Origin: Murdochiella vaginalis
GTDB taxonomy: Bacteria; Bacillota; Clostridia; Tissierellales; Peptoniphilaceae
Reading direction: 5' to 3'
Length of the DNA stretch: 64,000 nt
Assembly: GCF_900119705.1 (NCBI RefSeq)
Contig: NZ_LT632322.1
Location: 1,116,001 to 1,180,000 of the forward strand
Under the pieces are notes generated by a model. It did no database searches, was not told the DNA's origin, and saw only the letters and a list, made by a program, of their open reading frames with translations. Positions 14,899-64,000 of this stretch are shown one piece after another. Numbering within the stretch: the first letter of the stretch is position 1; each line of letters opens with the position of its first letter. The translations under genes and the position numbers were made by a program.

Positions 14899-14925
14899 TA
14901 TCGCTCGAAATTCGTAAATAGAAGA

Positions 14926-14957
14926 AAGGAGGATACCGTTACGGTATCCTCCTTTTT
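14926..14957 (+). terminator. Strong terminator of the BMP transporter operon
   Basis: AAGGAGGATACC / GGTATCCTCCTT is a 12-bp perfect stem with a five-base loop, followed by five T. Confidence 0.9.
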
Positions 14958-54303: not shown

Positions 54304-55259
54304 GGACGCTCGATTCCTTCCAATAGAGTGCGCAGCATGACGTAAACTTCTTGGTTCGTACCTTCTACGGTGGCGCCTGCGGCTTTTGTGTGTCCGCCTC
54401 CGCCAAGGGTTTTTGCAATCTCCGCCACGTTCACATATTCCTTGGATCGAAGACTGACTTTTTGGATGTCATGCGTCTGTTCTTTCAGGATGACAGCCAC
54501 CTCCACCCCCTGCAGATTACGAAGCGTATCCACGACGCCTTCCGCTTCCGGCATCGTAAGGCCGTAGTGTTGAATCCATTCCTGCGTGATATTTGCAAGC
54601 ATCACACGACCGCCGTGAAGGCTGAGTGCCTTTTCCACCACAGATCCTTCAAACGCGATGCGATTCCGATTCTCATTCTGATACTCCTGAAGATAGATGG
54701 CCTTGGCATCCGCACCGCAGTCAAGCAAATCCGCTGCCAGACGATGCGTGCGTGCACCGGACGTATCATACAAGAAGCGATTGGAATCGGTGATAATCCC
54801 TGCATAGAGCGCCGTAGCAGCATCCGACGATACCTTCCAGCCGTTTGTAAGCAGAAAGGACGCAATAATTTCACAGGTGGAAGAGGCGAGCGGATCCAAA
54901 ACAGCGTAGTCACAGAAACCATCGTTCGATAAATGATGGTCGAAATTAATACTGTGCCGACTATTCTTCATCGCTATTTGCGCACGCCCCATTCGGGCTG
55001 TATCGCCGAGATCGACGCGAATGAAAAGATCGTATGTTCGCTCCTCCTCCACCGGACGAAGGCAGGAAAACCCCGGCAAATACGAAAAATGGGCAATTTT
55101 TTCCTCTGCCAACATATCCACTTTTTTACCGGCGTCTTTTAAAGCCAGGCCAAGGCCCAGGACGGAGGCATAGCTGTCCCCGTCCGGATTAACATGCCCG
55201 GCAATGGCCACCGTTTGTGCTTCTTGTAACAGGCGGTTGACGATGGCGGTATCCATCAT
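54300..55259 (-). CDS. nrnA: DHH-family phosphoesterase NrnA-like
   Basis: The 319-residue protein has DHH motifs (HVNPDGDSYAS, VDLGDTARMG, FDHHLSND) and a DHHA1 end with GGGHTKAAGA. NrnA degrades short RNA oligomers (nanoRNA) and pAp, and some relatives cleave cyclic di-nucleotide products. It sits between rbfA and truB, where Clostridia usually have it. The start at 55259 overlaps the rbfA stop (ATGA); a second ATG at 55256 follows immediately and has better spacing from GGAGG. Confidence 0.92.
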   Translation of the reverse strand: MMDTAIVNRLLQEAQTVAIAGHVNPDGDSYASVLGLGLALKDAGKKVDMLAEEKIAHFSYLPGFSCLRPVEEERTYDLFIRVDLGDTARMGRAQIAMKNSRHSINFDHHLSNDGFCDYAVLDPLASSTCEIIASFLLTNGWKVSSDAATALYAGIITDSNRFLYDTSGARTHRLAADLLDCGADAKAIYLQEYQNENRNRIAFEGSVVEKALSLHGGRVMLANITQEWIQHYGLTMPEAEGVVDTLRNLQGVEVAVILKEQTHDIQKVSLRSKEYVNVAEIAKTLGGGGHTKAAGATVEGTNQEVYVMLRTLLEGIERP

Positions 55260-55660
55260 ACTTCCTCCTCCGTCTGTATGTCCGTTTCACCTCTTGCTGC
55301 TCGGCTTTCGTCATCTTGACGTAGGGTATCCGCAATAAGCTTGTCCATATACATACCATGTTCGATGGAGTCGTCCAGGTGAAATCGAAGTTCCGGAATC
55401 TGACGAAGCTTGACATGATTCGCCAGATAATTTTTTAAAAAGCCTTCGGCATTGCAAAGGCCTTCCATGGTTTGACGCTTATCCCACTCGGAGCCCATGA
55501 CGCTGACATAAATATCCGCATAAGAGAGATCATTCGAGACACGCACTTCCGAAAGCGTCAGTACCGAAGCGATTTTCGGATCCTTTAATGTGAAAAAGAT
55601 CGCTTCTGACAGTGCTTTTTTTACTTCTTGAGAGATACGCCCCAGACGTTTTTCTTTCAT
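55256..55660 (-). CDS. rbfA: Ribosome-binding factor A
   Basis: RbfA helps mature the 30S subunit. The 134-residue protein has the KH-like core: LTLSEVRVSNDLSYADIYV, and RQIPELRFHLDDSIEHGM at the end of the domain. An acidic tail of about 20 residues follows. It starts 42 bp after infB; the ylxP (DUF503) gene often found between them is absent. Confidence 0.94.
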   Translation of the reverse strand: MKEKRLGRISQEVKKALSEAIFFTLKDPKIASVLTLSEVRVSNDLSYADIYVSVMGSEWDKRQTMEGLCNAEGFLKNYLANHVKLRQIPELRFHLDDSIEHGMYMDKLIADTLRQDDESRAARGETDIQTEEEV

Positions 55661-55702: not shown

Positions 55703-57937
55703 TTATTGCGCGGGAACCTCGACCTCGTGGAAGCATTCCACCATGTCTCCGACCTTGACATCGTTATAGCGATCGATGCCGAGACCGCCCTCGAAACCGG
55801 TTGCGATTTCCTTCACGTCATCTTTGAAGCGTCGTAAGGAAGAAATCGTCCCTTCGTGAATCACCACATCATTGCGCAGCAAACGCACGCCGGCGTTGCG
55901 AACGATCTTGCCTGAGGTCACATAGATGCCGGCAACCGTACCGATGCTTGGAACCTTAAAGGTTTCACGAATCTCGCAACGTCCGAGCACCTCTTCCTTA
56001 ATTGTCGGAGACAGCATGCCCTTGATGGCTTGCTCGATGTCCTCAATGGCATCGTAGATGACACGATAGGTTCGAATGTCAATTTCATCGCGTTCGGCCT
56101 GTCGAATAGCACCCTGATTCGGTCGAACATTAAAGCCGATGATGATGGCATTGGATGCCGTCGCGAGCATAACGTCGCTTTCGCTAATTCCGCCAACTGC
56201 TCCGTGAATAATGTTAACCTTGACTTCCTGATTACCCAGCTTAGCCAGTGAGCCGGCCAGGGCATCAATGGTTCCTTTCACGTCGGTTTTGACGATGAGA
56301 TTGAGTTCCTTTAAACCTTCTTCGGAAATCTGCATGTGCAGATCATCCAAGGAGATATGGGTCGTTTTGTTCAAACGTTCATCCCGATTGCGCTGTGCAA
56401 CCTTTTCGGCGAACCCTCTTGCCACCTTTTCGTCAGCCACTGCGTAAATGGCATCGCCCGCTTCCGGCAGATCCGAGAGGCCGGTAATTTTCACCGGCAT
56501 GGAGGGACCCGCTTTATGGACTTTTTTGCCATGCGAATCAAACATCGAACGAATATGGCCGCTCACCTGACCAGACACAACATAGTCTTTATCGAAAAGC
56601 GTGCCGTTTTGCACTAAAACCGATGCGGTCGCTCCTCGTCCGCGCTCAATCTGTGATTCCAGCACGACGCCGACGGCCGCTCGATTCGGATTGGCTTTCA
56701 GTTCTTCCATCTCCGCCACCATCACGACCATCTGCAGCAAATCTTCAATCCCATCGCCCGTTTTTGCGGACAGTGGAATCATGATGACATCGCCGCCCCA
56801 TTCTTCGGCAACGAGACCCTGTTCCGCCAATTCCGTCATCACGCGGTTGGGATCTGCTCCCGGACGATCCATTTTATTGATGGCAACGACGATGGGCACT
56901 TTTGCCGCCTTGGAATGGTTGATGGCTTCAATCGTCTGCGGCATGACACCATCATCCGCCGCAACAACCAGAATAACAATATCCGTCGTCTGCGCACCAC
57001 GGCTACGCATTTGCGTAAACGCTTCATGGCCCGGTGTATCAATAAACGTGATGGGCTTACCGTCCACCATAGCCACGGAAGCACCGATGTGCTGCGTGAT
57101 GCCGCCCGCTTCCCCGCGCGTAACGGCGGTCTTGCGGATAGCGTCCAGCAAAGAGGTCTTACCGTGGTCAACATGGCCCATGACCGTAACGACCGGCGGA
57201 CGTGGTTTTAATTCGGAAGGATCATCCTGTACATTAAGAGGTTCGAAAATTTCGTCCACATCCGACGCTTCCGGCTCTGTAATCAATACGTCAAATTTTT
57301 CCGCTACCTTGGACGCGGTTTCAAAGGTGATGGATTCATTGAGGCCGGCCATAATGCCCATCTTGATCAGCTCGGTGATAATCTCCATCGAATTTTTTCG
57401 AATCGCCTTGGCAAAGTCGCCCACCGTAATTTCGGCTGGAATTTCAATGATACTGTCGATTTCATCGGCTTCCACAGGGGTCTGCACAACATTTTTATCT
57501 TTTTTCGGCGCTTTTTTTCTTTTACGCCGAGACGACACCGTTTCCTCTTTGTTTACTTCTGCCTCCATAACACGCGCCGGAACATGCTGTTTTTCCTTTT
57601 TCTTTTTATCAACATGCGGTTTGTGAACAGGCGCCTCTTCCTCTTCTTTGGAAGGATGATGTCTATCTTTTTTTGCTTCTTTCTTGCTTTCCTTGGTTCC
57701 TTCTTTTGTGCTTTCCTTTTTGTTTTCTTTTTTTGTTTCCGGTTTTGTCCCCTTTGTAGGAGCGGACTTTGGCTTTGCGCTTTTCTTCTTTGCAAAAAAC
57801 GCGCGGATCAGCTCCACATCATGGTCTTGAACGGCAGACATATGCGAAGGAAACTCCAACGAAAACTCTTTTTTTACCAGCGCTCGGAAGGTACTTGTCG
57901 GCTTTCCCACTTCTTTGGCTAACTCATAAACTCTCAT
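55703..57937 (-). CDS. infB: Translation initiation factor IF-2
   Basis: The 744-residue protein has an IF2-N module at its start (MRVYELAKEVGKPTSTF), a Lys/Glu-rich low-complexity region at about 50-150, a second IF2-N module (IPAEITVGDFAKAI), then the GTPase (GHVDHGKTSLLDAI, DTPGHEAFTQMRSRG, NKMDRPGADP), and two beta-barrel domains ending in EVLGRCEIRETF and DVKVGDMVECF. It starts four bases after ylxR. ylxQ (a L7Ae-like gene), common at this spot, is absent. Confidence 0.97.
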   Translation of the reverse strand: MRVYELAKEVGKPTSTFRALVKKEFSLEFPSHMSAVQDHDVELIRAFFAKKKSAKPKSAPTKGTKPETKKENKKESTKEGTKESKKEAKKDRHHPSKEEEEAPVHKPHVDKKKKEKQHVPARVMEAEVNKEETVSSRRKRKKAPKKDKNVVQTPVEADEIDSIIEIPAEITVGDFAKAIRKNSMEIITELIKMGIMAGLNESITFETASKVAEKFDVLITEPEASDVDEIFEPLNVQDDPSELKPRPPVVTVMGHVDHGKTSLLDAIRKTAVTRGEAGGITQHIGASVAMVDGKPITFIDTPGHEAFTQMRSRGAQTTDIVILVVAADDGVMPQTIEAINHSKAAKVPIVVAINKMDRPGADPNRVMTELAEQGLVAEEWGGDVIMIPLSAKTGDGIEDLLQMVVMVAEMEELKANPNRAAVGVVLESQIERGRGATASVLVQNGTLFDKDYVVSGQVSGHIRSMFDSHGKKVHKAGPSMPVKITGLSDLPEAGDAIYAVADEKVARGFAEKVAQRNRDERLNKTTHISLDDLHMQISEEGLKELNLIVKTDVKGTIDALAGSLAKLGNQEVKVNIIHGAVGGISESDVMLATASNAIIIGFNVRPNQGAIRQAERDEIDIRTYRVIYDAIEDIEQAIKGMLSPTIKEEVLGRCEIRETFKVPSIGTVAGIYVTSGKIVRNAGVRLLRNDVVIHEGTISSLRRFKDDVKEIATGFEGGLGIDRYNDVKVGDMVECFHEVEVPAQ

Positions 57938-57940
57938 CTT

Positions 57941-58207
57941 TTACCTCGATTCCTCAATCGATCGTTTCAGCTCTTCATAAAAGGCCTCTCCTATTTGCGT
58001 CTTTAACGCGGCTTTCAAACGATTCTTCTTTTCCGCTTTTTCAATACATTCTATTGCACAGCAGAGATACGCTCCTCTGCCGTTTTGTTTTCCTGTTTTA
58101 TCAATAGCGATTTCCCCGGAAGGCAGGCGAACCACGCGGAGAAGATCGGATTTTGGTTTTCGTTCCCCGCAGACAACGCATTTGCGAAGCGGTTCTTTTT
58201 TAGGCAT
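57941..58207 (-). CDS. ylxR: YlxR family protein (RnpM-like RNA-binding protein)
   Basis: The 88-residue protein has RKCVVCGERKPKSDLLRVVR and GRGAYLC, the marks of the YlxR/DUF448 family. Members bind RNA, and one has been reported to modulate RNase P. I chose the ATG at 58207, with AAGGTGG upstream; a GTG at 58216 would add three residues. It overlaps the nusA end by 8 bp and precedes infB by 3 bp. Confidence 0.92.
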   Translation of the reverse strand: MPKKEPLRKCVVCGERKPKSDLLRVVRLPSGEIAIDKTGKQNGRGAYLCCAIECIEKAEKKNRLKAALKTQIGEAFYEELKRSIEESR

Positions 58208-59366
58208 CCTCGCCACCTTCCGCTATCGTTTCCTTCGGTTCTTCCTGCTGATCCGACGAATTCTCCTCCGGAAGGGCAAAAAGATCCAATGGCTTCTGTG
58301 ATACTGTATCCGCATCAAAAGCAGAAGGATCGGCATCATATTGCGATTGCCCCTTGATATCGATCTTCCAGCCGGTCAAACGTGCCGCTAAACGCACATT
58401 TTGTCCTTCTTTACCGATGGCAAGTGAAAGCTGATCATCCGGAACGATCACGACCGCGGAATGCTCCTCCTCTTGAAGAATCACCTTGTTCACTGCCGAC
58501 GGACTCAACGCGTTGGCAATAAACTGTTTCGGATCCTCACTATAGATAATGATGTCCATTTTTTCGCCGATTAACTCATCGACAATCAGATTTACGCGAT
58601 TACCTTTGTAACCGACGCAAGCACCGATCGGGTCAATGTTCGGATCATGCGACCACACGGCAATTTTGGTACGCGATCCGGCTTCGCGTGACACCGAATA
58701 AATTTCAACAACTCCGTCGTTGATTTCCGGCACTTCCTGTTCAAAAAGACGTGCGACTAAATTCGGATGAGCACGAGAAAGAAGAACCTGCGGTCCGCGC
58801 GACGAAACACGCACATCGCAAACATAAAGCTTCACACGGTCTCCTACATGCAGATGCTCACGTGGAATCTGCTCTCTTTTCGTAATGACGCCTTCCGTTT
58901 TTCCAAGATTAATATAGACATTGTTGTTGTCGATGCGTTGCACGGTGCCGACAATCATTTCTTTCATGCGGTCAATATAGGCATCATAAACGGCTTCGCG
59001 CTCCGCATCGCGCAGTTTCTGAATAATGATATTTCGAGCCGTCTGGGCAGCAATGCGGCCGAAGTTATCGGGTTGCACTTCGATGCGTATACTGTCCCCT
59101 ACCTGTGCCTTGGGGTAGCGCACAACCGCTTCTTCCAGGCGAATCTGTCGAATAGGATCTTCGACCTTGTCCACGACTTCCCGCAACTGATAGACGTGAA
59201 AATCGCCGGTCATCTCATCGGCAACAACTTCGACATTGGTTTCGTCCTGAAAATTCTTTTCATAGCTCTTTTCCAGTGCCTTGGCCATTGCTTCTAAAAT
59301 AACCTTTTTAGAAATGCCCTTTGTATTCTGCAATTCTTCCAGGGCTTGTAATAACTCTTTGTTCAT
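58200..59366 (-). CDS. nusA: Transcription termination/antitermination protein NusA
   Basis: The 388-residue protein has the N-terminal RNA polymerase-binding domain (VILEAMAKALEKSYEK), an S1 domain (IVGTVQRIDNNNVYINLGKTEG), and two KH domains (VGYKGNRVNLIVDELIGEK and AIGKEGQNVRLAARLTGW). An acidic tail of about 40 residues follows. NusA promotes pausing and termination. It starts 29 bp after rimP. The intrinsic terminator in the operon leader is a natural target for its own control. Confidence 0.96.
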   Translation of the reverse strand: MNKELLQALEELQNTKGISKKVILEAMAKALEKSYEKNFQDETNVEVVADEMTGDFHVYQLREVVDKVEDPIRQIRLEEAVVRYPKAQVGDSIRIEVQPDNFGRIAAQTARNIIIQKLRDAEREAVYDAYIDRMKEMIVGTVQRIDNNNVYINLGKTEGVITKREQIPREHLHVGDRVKLYVCDVRVSSRGPQVLLSRAHPNLVARLFEQEVPEINDGVVEIYSVSREAGSRTKIAVWSHDPNIDPIGACVGYKGNRVNLIVDELIGEKMDIIIYSEDPKQFIANALSPSAVNKVILQEEEHSAVVIVPDDQLSLAIGKEGQNVRLAARLTGWKIDIKGQSQYDADPSAFDADTVSQKPLDLFALPEENSSDQQEEPKETIAEGGEDA

Positions 59367-59395
59367 GTATTTTCTCTTTCCTCCTTACCGAATAG

Positions 59396-59857
59396 TCAAT
59401 TGAACGCCACATACGGACGAATGGTAGAAATGTCCGCACGCAACAATCGGCGTTCGTTCTCGTTATCATTCACCACAATGGCCTCATCATCAAAGTCAAC
59501 CAGCGTAGCGACCAATTGTTTGGATCCGTTTTCCTTTTTGTAAAAGCCAATCTCCACTTTCTCGCCGCAATAAATCTCCAATTGGCGATTTGTTTTTAAG
59601 GGACGCGAAAGATCTGGCGAACTGACTTCAAGCAGATAATGCTGATCAATAGGATCCCATTCATCCAATTTCGGACTCAGCACATTGCTGACCGCTTCAC
59701 AGTCATCTATGGTAATACCGTCGGGATGGTAGATGAAAAAACGCAGAATATTGTCTTCCTGTTCATGTACAAACTCAACGTCCAACAACTCATAACCTGC
59801 CTCTTTCACCGCTTCGTCAAAACGCGGCCGCCAAGTCTTTATCAAACTCTGCTTCAT
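59396..59857 (-). CDS. rimP: Ribosome maturation factor RimP
   Basis: The 153-residue protein aids 30S maturation. It has the family core (GYELLDVEFVHEQEDNILRFF, DDCEAVSNVLSPKLDE, YLLEVSSPDLSRPLK) and a C-terminal Sm-like barrel. The start at 59857 follows AAGGAGG; the longer frame would read through the leader terminator. It is the first gene of the nusA-infB operon. Confidence 0.94.
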   Translation of the reverse strand: MKQSLIKTWRPRFDEAVKEAGYELLDVEFVHEQEDNILRFFIYHPDGITIDDCEAVSNVLSPKLDEWDPIDQHYLLEVSSPDLSRPLKTNRQLEIYCGEKVEIGFYKKENGSKQLVATLVDFDDEAIVVNDNENERRLLRADISTIRPYVAFN

Positions 59858-60015
59858 CGGACCTCCTTCCGGTCTGAAAAAAACAAGAGCGGAGTTCCGC
59901 TCTTGTTCCATGCAACATCTATCGTTGTTATCTTACCATATTGTCGCTTGCATGACAAGGAATCTCTACTCCCATGCATCAATGAGTGGATAATGACAGT
60001 ATCTCCTTTTCTCAT
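59854..60015 (-). CDS. Possible 53-residue leader protein ahead of rimP
   Basis: An ATG at 60015 preceded by GGAAGGG opens a frame that begins MRKGDTVIIHSLMHG, contains QYGKITTIDV, and ends at 59854 with TGA overlapping the rimP ATG (ATGA). It reads straight through the leader terminator. I know no family for it. If translated, ribosomes would disrupt the hairpin and couple leader translation to rimP expression. It could equally be chance. It would need the upstream promoter with the -10 at 60034-60039. Confidence 0.3.
   Translation of the reverse strand: MRKGDTVIIHSLMHGSRDSLSCKRQYGKITTIDVAWNKSGTPLLFFSDRKEVR
59877..59907 (-). terminator. Leader terminator (attenuator) of the rimP-nusA operon
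   Basis: AACAAGAGCGG / CCGCTCTTGTT, an 11-bp perfect stem with a four-base loop, is followed on the minus strand by seven T. It ends 20 bases before the rimP start and only about 20 bases after the predicted transcription start. No other minus-strand gene lies upstream that would need a terminator. Confidence 0.85.
59930..59958 (-). promoter_or_regulatory. Promoter of the rimP-nusA-infB operon
   Basis: On the minus strand TTGTCA (-35) is 17 bp from TAAGAT (-10). A second, weaker pair lies further up (TTGTAC, 17 bp, AATAAT, with the -10 at 60034-60039). Confidence 0.6.
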
Positions 60016-60042
60016 AGGATTCCCTTCCTCGCTATTATTCTT

Positions 60043-60073
60043 TTGCGACAGAATTCGTACAATAGAGTACAAT
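60043..60073 (+). promoter_or_regulatory. Possible promoter of the folE operon
   Basis: TTGCGA is 19 bp from TACAAT (60068-60073); another TACAAT lies at 60058-60063. The spacing is long, so the call is weak. I see no tetrahydrofolate riboswitch in the 60-base leader. Confidence 0.35.
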
Positions 60074-60132
60074 AGAAGCACTTTGCAAGAAGCCGTATTT
60101 CCGGCTTCTATCGACAACAGAAAGGATATCCT

Positions 60133-60687
60133 ATGGACACCCAAAAGATTGAACAAGGCGTTCGCCTGCTTTTAGAGGGAATCGGTGAAAATCCTGATCG
60201 CGAAGGACTTCTGGAAACACCGGCACGCGTAGCCCGCGCCTGTGAGGAGCTCTTTGGCGGATTGAATTTGACGGCGGAAAACCACCTCTCCAAAACTTTT
60301 GAATTTGTAAATGACAATATCGTCATTGAAAAAAATATTCCGTTTTATTCCCTGTGCGAACATCACCTTCTCCCCTTTTATGGAGAAGTACACATTGCGT
60401 ATATTCCCAATGGGAAAGTCGCCGGTCTGTCGAAGCTCGCCCGCACGGTGGAAGTGTATGCCAAGCGGCCGCAGATTCAGGAGCGCATGACACAGCAGAT
60501 TGCGGAAGCGATTCGCGACTATTTGGACGCCAAGGGCGTTTTGGTTGTGGCAAAAGCAGAACATCTTTGCATGACGATGCGCGGTATCAAGAAGCCCGGC
60601 ACAAAAACCGTTACGGCCTGTGCGTTAGGCAGCATCGAAGAGGATGAAACGCTGAAAAATGAAGTCTATCGGTTAATGGATTTTTAA
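60133..60687 (+). CDS. folE: GTP cyclohydrolase I
   Basis: FolE turns GTP into 7,8-dihydroneopterin triphosphate, the first step of folate synthesis. The 184-residue protein has the zinc ligands C75 and H78 ([10 protein letters not shown]) and C146 ([10 protein letters not shown]). [20 protein letters not shown] is the conserved centre. It overlaps the HD hydrolase gene by one base (TAATG). Confidence 0.97.
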
Positions 60688-61190
60688 TGGATACAGTAAA
60701 ACGAGCAAAAGAGCCGATGGAAAATACGAATCGGATTTATCAAGATCCGTATTATGCGACGCTTCTATCCCGTCTGGAAGAGCTGGAAAAAGAGCGCGTA
60801 TTCTGTAGGCATGATCTGAACCACTTTTTAAGCGTGGGACGTATCGCCTACATTCTCTCTTTGGAAGAGGGGCTTTCTGTTTCCAAGGATGTACTCTATA
60901 CCGCCGCGCTGTTGCATGATATCGGGCGTGTTGAGGAAATGACCTCCGGCCTTGCACACGATGAGGCTTCCGCAAACATTGCCGAGAAGTTTTTAGCAAA
61001 CTCCACCTTTACGAATGCGGAAAAGGAAACGGTGCTTTCTCTCATTCGCAGCCATCGAAGTCTCGGCGAGAATCCGCTGACGGACCTATTTTATCGCGCC
61101 GATAAACTATCACGACCGTGTGCGCATTGTCCGGCCATCGATCTTTGTTATTGGCCGGAGGAACGAAAAAATCGAACGCTACGTTATTAG
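60687..61190 (+). CDS. HD-domain phosphohydrolase in the folate operon
   Basis: The 167-residue protein has HD-superfamily metal ligands: a His at 42 or 46 (RHDLNHFLSVGR), H77-D78 in LLHDIGR, and D139 in YRADKLSR. The C-terminus has three cysteines, C145-x2-C148-x5-C154 (PCAHCPAIDLCYW), a conserved feature of this Firmicutes group, perhaps a metal site. HD proteins of this kind are phosphohydrolases or nucleotidases. It is translationally coupled to folE (TAATG) and precedes the folB-folK gene, so a role in removing phosphate from dihydroneopterin triphosphate is plausible but unproven. Confidence 0.8.
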   Translation: MDTVKRAKEPMENTNRIYQDPYYATLLSRLEELEKERVFCRHDLNHFLSVGRIAYILSLEEGLSVSKDVLYTAALLHDIGRVEEMTSGLAHDEASANIAEKFLANSTFTNAEKETVLSLIRSHRSLGENPLTDLFYRADKLSRPCAHCPAIDLCYWPEERKNRTLRY

Positions 61191-61198
61191 GAGGCATC

Positions 61199-62017
61199 AT
61201 GGATCATTTGCGCATAAAAGATCTGGAAATTATGGCTTATCACGGCCTTTTTCCGGAGGAAAAAAAATTGGGACAGAAATTTCTGGTTTCTGTGGATTGC
61301 GCCTATAACATGAAATATGCTGCGGAAGACAAGGATCTGGAGCAATCCATCGATTACGGGCGTCTGTGTAAAGACATTTTCATCGAACTCACGGAAAATA
61401 CGTATGATCTCATTGAAACCTGCGCCTATCGTATTTTGAAAAATATTTTTAATTTTTTCCCTTTTGTCGAAGAAGCCACCGTTTCGATTAAAAAGCCTTT
61501 TGCGCCTATTGGCTATCCTCTGGATTATCCGGAAGTATCAATCACCCGTAAAATGCGCACCTATTGGATTGCGCTCGGTACCAACCTAGGCGATCGAAGA
61601 GCGAATCTGGAGCAAGCCCTACAGGCCATGGAAGAAGCCAGCTTGACAGTGACAAAATCTTCATCCGTTTTGGAGACGAAGGCATGGGGTAAAACCGATC
61701 AGCCCGATTTTCTGAATCAGGTAGTAGAGGTTCAAAGCTTTGAAGAACCGGAAGATATGCTGACGATTTTGCAGCAGATTGAATCCGATCTGGGACGCGT
61801 TCGTCAGGAACATTGGGGCCCGCGCCCCATCGACCTGGACATCCTTTTGGTCGATCGAGAGATCATTCAGTCGGAACGCCTGACCGTTCCGCATCCGTAC
61901 ATGACAGAACGCGCCTTTGTACTGGATCCGTTAAACGAAATTGCCCCCTTCGTTCTTCATCCGGTGCGCCAAAAAGCCATACGAGAGCTCTATCAAGAAT
62001 TGCATCAACAGGAATAA
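61199..62017 (+). CDS. folBK: Fused dihydroneopterin aldolase / HPPK
   Basis: The 272-residue protein joins two enzymes. Residues 1-118 are FolB (LEIMAYHGLFPEEKKLGQKF, with the catalytic Lys near IKKPFAPIGYPLDY). Residues 122-272 are FolK (WIALGTNLGDRRANLEQAL, WGPRPIDLDILL, and PHPYMTERAFVL). They act in series: dihydroneopterin to hydroxymethyl-dihydropterin, then its diphosphate for FolP. The start at 61199 follows AGGAGG. A terminator follows at 62031. Confidence 0.95.
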   Translation: MDHLRIKDLEIMAYHGLFPEEKKLGQKFLVSVDCAYNMKYAAEDKDLEQSIDYGRLCKDIFIELTENTYDLIETCAYRILKNIFNFFPFVEEATVSIKKPFAPIGYPLDYPEVSITRKMRTYWIALGTNLGDRRANLEQALQAMEEASLTVTKSSSVLETKAWGKTDQPDFLNQVVEVQSFEEPEDMLTILQQIESDLGRVRQEHWGPRPIDLDILLVDREIIQSERLTVPHPYMTERAFVLDPLNEIAPFVLHPVRQKAIRELYQELHQQE

Positions 62018-62030
62018 AAAACAAAAGCAA

Positions 62031-62062
62031 AAAAGACGGTGAATTGATTCACCGCCTTTTTT
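62031..62062. terminator. Bidirectional terminator between the two folate units
   Basis: CGGTGAAT / ATTCACCG with outer A and T runs on both sides. It serves folBK on + and folP on -. Confidence 0.85.
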
Positions 62063-62078
62063 ATTCTCTATCGTATTT

Positions 62079-64000
<1,922 letters not shown>

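Follow-up and report, generated by a model that had tools for sequence, protein, structure and literature searches.

The rimP operon and its leader

The window, a stretch of 64,000 nucleotides of the Murdochiella vaginalis genome (a single contig of 1.67 Mb), carries on its minus strand an operon in the order rimP-nusA-ylxR-infB-rbfA, with rimP first (Table 1). The gene upstream, folE, is on the opposite strand and divergent from rimP. The rimP start was set at 59857 for its Shine-Dalgarno sequence; a longer reading frame from 59911 crosses the hairpin of the leader. In this operon infB follows directly after ylxR (57937-57941, -), with no ylxQ between them, ylxQ presumably being the gene found at this place in B. 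subtilis.

Table 1. Coordinates of the operon genes and leader features within the window.
Feature	Position	Strand	Basis
-35 box TTGTCA	59953..59958	-	promoter scan and sequence
extended -10 TGG-TAAGAT	59930..59938	-	promoter scan and sequence; relatives with a -10 at similar spacing
terminator stem AACAAGAGCGG/CCGCTCTTGTT, 11 bp, loop AACT	59882..59907	-	sequence, fold, alignment with 56 relatives, compensatory changes
uninterrupted U7 tract (seven T)	59877..59883	-	sequence
Shine-Dalgarno AAGGAGG of rimP	59862..59868	-	sequence
rimP, 153 aa	59396..59857	-	PF02576, PF17384
nusA	58200..59366	-	PF08529, PF13184, PF00575
ylxR	57941..58216	-	PF04296
infB	55703..57937	-	PF11987, PF04760
rbfA	55256..55660	-	PF02033

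The leader has a sigma-70-type promoter with an extended -10 and a spacer of 17 nt between the -35 and -10, which places the transcription start at about 59923 (-). From this predicted start there are 16 nt to the stem, and another 13 nt separate the stem from the Shine-Dalgarno sequence. The core of the stem is GAGCGG/CCGCTC, with a G-rich 5' arm, a C-rich 3' arm and a T-stretch after it, and the predicted leader RNA is about 47 nt long, with its 3' end at the U7 tract. An earlier note on this DNA had described a promoter, a close terminator with seven T and then the rimP ribosome site, and the sequence bears this arrangement out. Its further statement that no upstream minus-strand gene needs the terminator also holds, with folE divergent and the nearest same-strand ORF end 263 nt upstream of the hairpin, in an ORF antisense to folE.

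By eye, positions 59966-60000 (-) look like what is left of the 3' terminus of a gene on this strand (..YYPLVDAWE-stop). A gene with this ending is still present before rimP in two relatives (L003 and L004); the protein upstream of rimP in L003 had no Pfam match. A small minus-strand ORF of 53 aa, which runs from an ATG at 60015 through the hairpin to a TGA at 59856-59854 overlapping the rimP ATG, was considered and is put down to chance. It appears in the mechanical listing as 60156-59854 with a TTG start. A Pfam search with the ORF (60015-59854, -) gave no match, and its frame is interrupted by stops in each of the relatives L003, L004, L005, L006 and L008.

Comparison with chance

The 86 nt leader region folds with a z of -3.0, which was equalled by 1 of 200 shuffles. 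A stock terminator scan of 58000-64000 returned 11 sites versus 7.1 expected, and the leader hairpin was not among them; we take the reason to be that the stem search ran on into the T-run. A scan of our own, which required at least 10 pairs, 5 G-C and 6 T of 8, and which counted the trailing T of the 3' arm, identified 9 sites in the 64 kb window versus 0 in four one-strand dinucleotide shuffles. Judged against mechanical ORFs of at least 90 aa and tRNAs, the other eight sites are all behind a gene or tRNA, or on the opposite strand of such a site. A strong hairpin at 14923-14955, with T-runs on both strands, is likely to be a two-way terminator.

By itself the promoter match is weak (9/12, with 11 such sites versus 7.1 expected). 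What makes the predicted promoter convincing is that it recurs upstream of the stem across 59 leaders of the order, where the best -10 lies at a median of 27 nt before the stem core (23-32 nt in 44 of the 59) and has a TG one base before it in 53. This is said with the reserve that the score rewarded TG, and that the shuffles, 2.7% of which reached the median -10 score, were mononucleotide shuffles.

Conservation and covariation in the order

RimP was searched for in 61 genomes, the present one and 60 of its genus, family and order, and was matched in 60 of these, including its own. A hairpin with a T-rich tail was located by script in 57 of the 60 leaders, and at least 5 T are present within the scored 10 nt tail of 57 of 60. 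After inspection had added G051 (a loop of 10 nt) and G054 (a T-poor tail), a homologous hairpin was counted before rimP in 59 of 60 genomes, the present one included. In G052, RimP is present and inspection revealed no leader hairpin.

The alignment holds 57 of the 59 hairpin leaders, G034 and G051 being omitted since the script motif did not fit them. Its stem consensus is AAGAGUGGG-loop-CCCACUCUU (in RNA form GAGUGGG..CCCACUC). Over 10 pairs and 55 distinct sequences, 92.9% of the cells pair, and slid registers pair in at most 64.4% each. Both sides have changed in 54 cells, versus 21.3 +/- 3.5 in shuffles, and none of 500 shuffles reached 54. The covariation is less striking when measured by the number of pairs in which both sides change (5 versus 3.5 in shuffles, reached by 34 of 500) or by pair types (15 versus 12.6, reached by 36 of 500). 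Five of the ten pairs are invariant in the 55 sequences and the remaining five have both-side changes.

In the window the consensus U-A pair is replaced by C-G, as it is in G001, G002, G003, G004, G010 and G018. The window keeps two of the three loop-side G-C pairs (GCGG..CCGC) of the rimP-leader pattern GGGc(...)gCCC, which in PMC2965389 is a consensus, with no cut-off given in the available text. Its T-run is 7; runs of at least 6 are present in 21 of the 59 leaders and absent from 38. Such runs occur in 10 of the 15 leaders without the third G-C pair versus 11 of the 44 with it (Fisher p 0.0055, kinship ignored), and a link between this pair and the U-tract is only a lead.

In an ungapped comparison of the 59 leaders, only two A adjoining the core stand out before the stem. 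A GATAGA box at 59922-59917 (-), between start and stem, is found in 8 of the 59 (shuffle mean 1.0, maximum 5 in 300 shuffles, kinship ignored), which is too few for a general leader element. Two other candidates were dropped by eye: a hairpin around the Shine-Dalgarno sequence (GACC..GGUC), seen in the fold and not kept in the Levyella leader, and a boxA-like CGCUCUU in the 3' arm, where several relatives read CUCUAG.

Distribution across the phylum

The exact pattern GAGTGGGN{3,6}CCCACTC was found in 201 of 299 genomes of the phylum, as a single copy in 195, and a reversed control pattern in 16 of 299. The genome of the window, with its GAGCGG core, is counted among the 98 of 299 without the exact pattern. 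It has one copy of AGAGCGGN{3,6}CCGCTCT, which is the leader hairpin itself. Positions among the matches listed cover at least 75 sites in at least 72 genomes, and where the position of RimP was also listed, 51 of 53 sites precede the RimP match by about 54-232 nt. The other two are a second site in G326 and a site in G183, where rimP is preceded by a separate hairpin with a 7 nt loop. A further 30 phylum loci were covered, these being the best-scoring RimP matches and not a random draw; all 30 have GAGTGGG-loop-CCC(A/G)CTC before rimP, and none has a T-run of at least 6 in the 14 bases after the hairpin. In G326 (C12:482717), G132, G194, G225, G346 and G183 (C1:22784) the exact motif occurs in an additional copy or at a distance from rimP. 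Such copies may be due to chance, or the same factor may have a second target there.

Genomes without RimP

RimP (PF02576) was found in 282 of the 299 phylum genomes and was not found in 17 at E up to 0.001; it was also not found in G025, even at E up to 10. A NusA match is present in 9 of these 18 RimP-less genomes. In five of them, from five families (G025, G167, G168, G217 and G323), the hairpin stands in front of nusA and no rimP intervenes. Both the leader hairpin and RimP are lacking in G069 and G218, which belong to one genus and have NusA. Two genomes were uninformative: in G305 the roughly 140 nt covered upstream show no clear core, and G348 lies at a contig end. In one genus (loci L099 and L100), where NusA is present and RimP and hairpin are missing, a gene that we take to be MgtC-like is in front.

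In the genus of G025 (g22), no RimP match was found in 5 of 6 genomes even at E up to 10; the five are all 99% complete and one is a single contig. By eye, nusA is preceded in all five by an extended -10 and then the hairpin, with differing sequences further upstream, and the sixth genome, G361, has rimP with the hairpin in front. Among the five, the stems differ by a paired change, GAGTGG/CCACTC versus GAGAGG/CCTCTC. The g22 loci L105, L112, L113, L115 and L116, in which the 30S maturation factor RimP was not found, are of the same family as the window. This brings the RimP-less genomes with the hairpin before nusA to nine, from five families, with 35-265 nt from the end of the core to the NusA match; at completeness values of 81% for G168 and 90% for G323, an unassembled rimP elsewhere is possible in these two.

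RimP is thus not required, since these nine genomes keep the hairpin before nusA, and it is removed as a necessary partner. The hairpin unit stays with nusA and retains its pairing in the absence of a RimP match, which speaks strongly against RimP as the required regulator. The usual position directly before rimP had favoured binding of the hairpin by RimP, in control of its own operon, and the possibility was raised by Naville and Gautheret in the available text of PMC2965389. In view of the nine RimP-less genomes and of the paired change in g22, this is very improbable. A caveat is that a deletion of rimP only would at first leave the leader in place, limiting the argument. Retention without RimP fits NusA, as it does every other product remaining in the operon, and does not separate NusA from IF2 or RbfA. 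The use of rimP loss as an evolutionary test of the regulator's identity is apparently new: the argument was not met in the accessible portions of the open-access papers searched.

Relation to known rimP leaders

It is well supported that the element in the window is a member of the known rimP-leader kind. It has the same G-rich 5' and C-rich 3' arms, U-tract and lack of an antiterminator before rimP-nusA-infB that are described in the available text of Naville and Gautheret 2010, where the rimP-leader is ranked as the most ubiquitous transcription attenuator (PMC2965389). The 19 nt from the U-tract to the rimP ATG (59857) are inside the range of 4-130 nt given there for rimP-leaders. It differs in its core, GAGCGG/CCGCUC, in the loss of the third loop-side G-C pair, and in its perfect U-tract. 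The window contains no match to Rfam RF01770, which we take to be the rimP leader family, at the gathering score, and relaxing the threshold to E up to 5 in 59780-60060 produced none either.

The earlier note had mentioned a report of autocontrol for B. subtilis nusA. This report is real, according to the accessible part of a 2025 review (PMC12288461), in which autocontrol by NusA via a leader terminator is described for B. subtilis. That attenuator (Mondal 2016, via PMC12288461) is likewise an intrinsic terminator in the leader of the same operon, but its leader is 180 nt long (as stated in the part of PMC2965389 available), versus the roughly 47 nt predicted in the window. The same part of the review puts the effect of NusA highest where the hairpin is weak or the U-tract interrupted; we read this as a tendency and not a definition. 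In S. agalactiae, termination was located 31 nt after the start of gbs0413-gbs0418 (rimP-nusA), according to an excerpt of PMC4448216. There too the promoter is almost on the terminator, in a distant organism compared by description and not by sequence. The E. coli rimP leader (L111) shares a hairpin and U-tract (U7) just before rimP, but its stem is GGGC..GCCC and it has metY and a further hairpin in front. From partial texts, expression of an E. coli rimP fusion is lower in a Rho mutant (PMC7815308), and terminators t1 and t2 are located upstream of E. coli rimP (PMC6511841).

Mechanism and alternatives

At -18.5 kcal/mol, the stem region of the window ranks 10 of 59, tied with G003 and G004 (median -16.1). 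The copy is stronger than most of the 59 leaders because of its perfect U-tract together with the loss of the third loop-side G-C pair, and with this stem and a T-run of 7 it does not fit the suboptimal-terminator class of weak hairpins or interrupted U-tracts. The RNA before the 3' arm folds with -1.6 kcal/mol versus -17.2 for the terminator stem. No antiterminator is visible in the leader fold, and no larger conserved element before the stem in the 59 leaders. RNA refolding is therefore unlikely to make the decision, and any regulation of the site would need a factor.

RNA polymerase would start at about 59923, make about 16 nt and then meet the hairpin and U7. Some polymerases would release the leader of about 47 nt and others would continue into the operon. 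This predicted leader is too short for an antiterminator, a riboswitch aptamer or a leader peptide, and no sign of one was seen. The choice, if regulated, would fall to a factor that acts on the polymerase or the hairpin. The likeliest candidate is NusA, where a rise in NusA would raise termination and so lower NusA synthesis.

The claim that this is an attenuator of the rimP-nusA-infB operon stands, on its anatomy, its conservation and the lack of an upstream gene needing a terminator. With no antiterminator visible and the upstream gene divergent, the hairpin is thus seen as serving its own operon. That it is an attenuator is very likely, termination in this organism being predicted from sequence. 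A rimP-leader attenuator of the rimP-nusA-ylxR-infB-rbfA operon with NusA as the most likely factor is, taken as a whole, probable. NusA control in this species may be called fairly likely, given the gene content, the rimP-loss test and the literature. The case for NusA as the sensor here is helped by the hairpin kept before nusA without RimP, and the canonical strength of this copy weakens it. NusA may change little at such a strong, canonical terminator, since the review ties it to weak ones.

This strength would suit a constitutive terminator with a constant low readthrough and no NusA feedback in the clade. The strong hairpin and perfect U7, shared with the six GAGCGG-core relatives (G001-G004, G010, G018), and the absence of an antiterminator all point in that direction. 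Against it, the letters of the core, beyond mere strength, are conserved across the phylum, and feedback is reported for B. subtilis in the accessible part of PMC12288461. Fixed attenuation is rather unlikely, while deserving some weight.

Same-strand ORFs do end upstream in L003, G025 and G357 (presumably polC-like in the last two), and at these loci the hairpin could have both roles. A role as the usual 3' terminator of a gene further upstream, or as insulation against readthrough, would not explain a window in which folE is divergent and the hairpin and U7 are intact, or a promoter between the upstream gene and the hairpin, and this explanation is extremely improbable. The stem might instead act mainly in the readthrough mRNA, for example by shielding the 5' end or by leaving the ribosome site accessible. 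Its place close to both the predicted 5' end and the Shine-Dalgarno sequence would suit such a role, as would the lack of T-runs of at least 6 in the 30 phylum leaders. However, no T tail is needed for this, yet nearly all of the 60 leaders of the order have one, and RNA-seq of S. agalactiae shows termination in the leader (available part of PMC4448216). A main role in the mRNA is very doubtful. An attenuator of the operon, with NusA as its probable factor, is retained as the preferred reading: in a lineage where promoter and terminator nearly touch and the upstream gene is divergent, the rimP-leader has little room for another role.

The near-invariant letters of the stem pose the question of what reads them. 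One tentative answer, which we consider possible and no more than a minority prospect, is that NusA (through KH/S1) or a partner may bind GAGUGGG-CCCACUC specifically. Cited for this are the five invariant pairs of ten and the T-runs of 6 that are missing from 38 of the 59 leaders of the order and from 30 of 30 in the phylum. If true, a hairpin read by its letters, usually once per genome, would make termination in the nusA operon respond to NusA in a way that other terminators do not.
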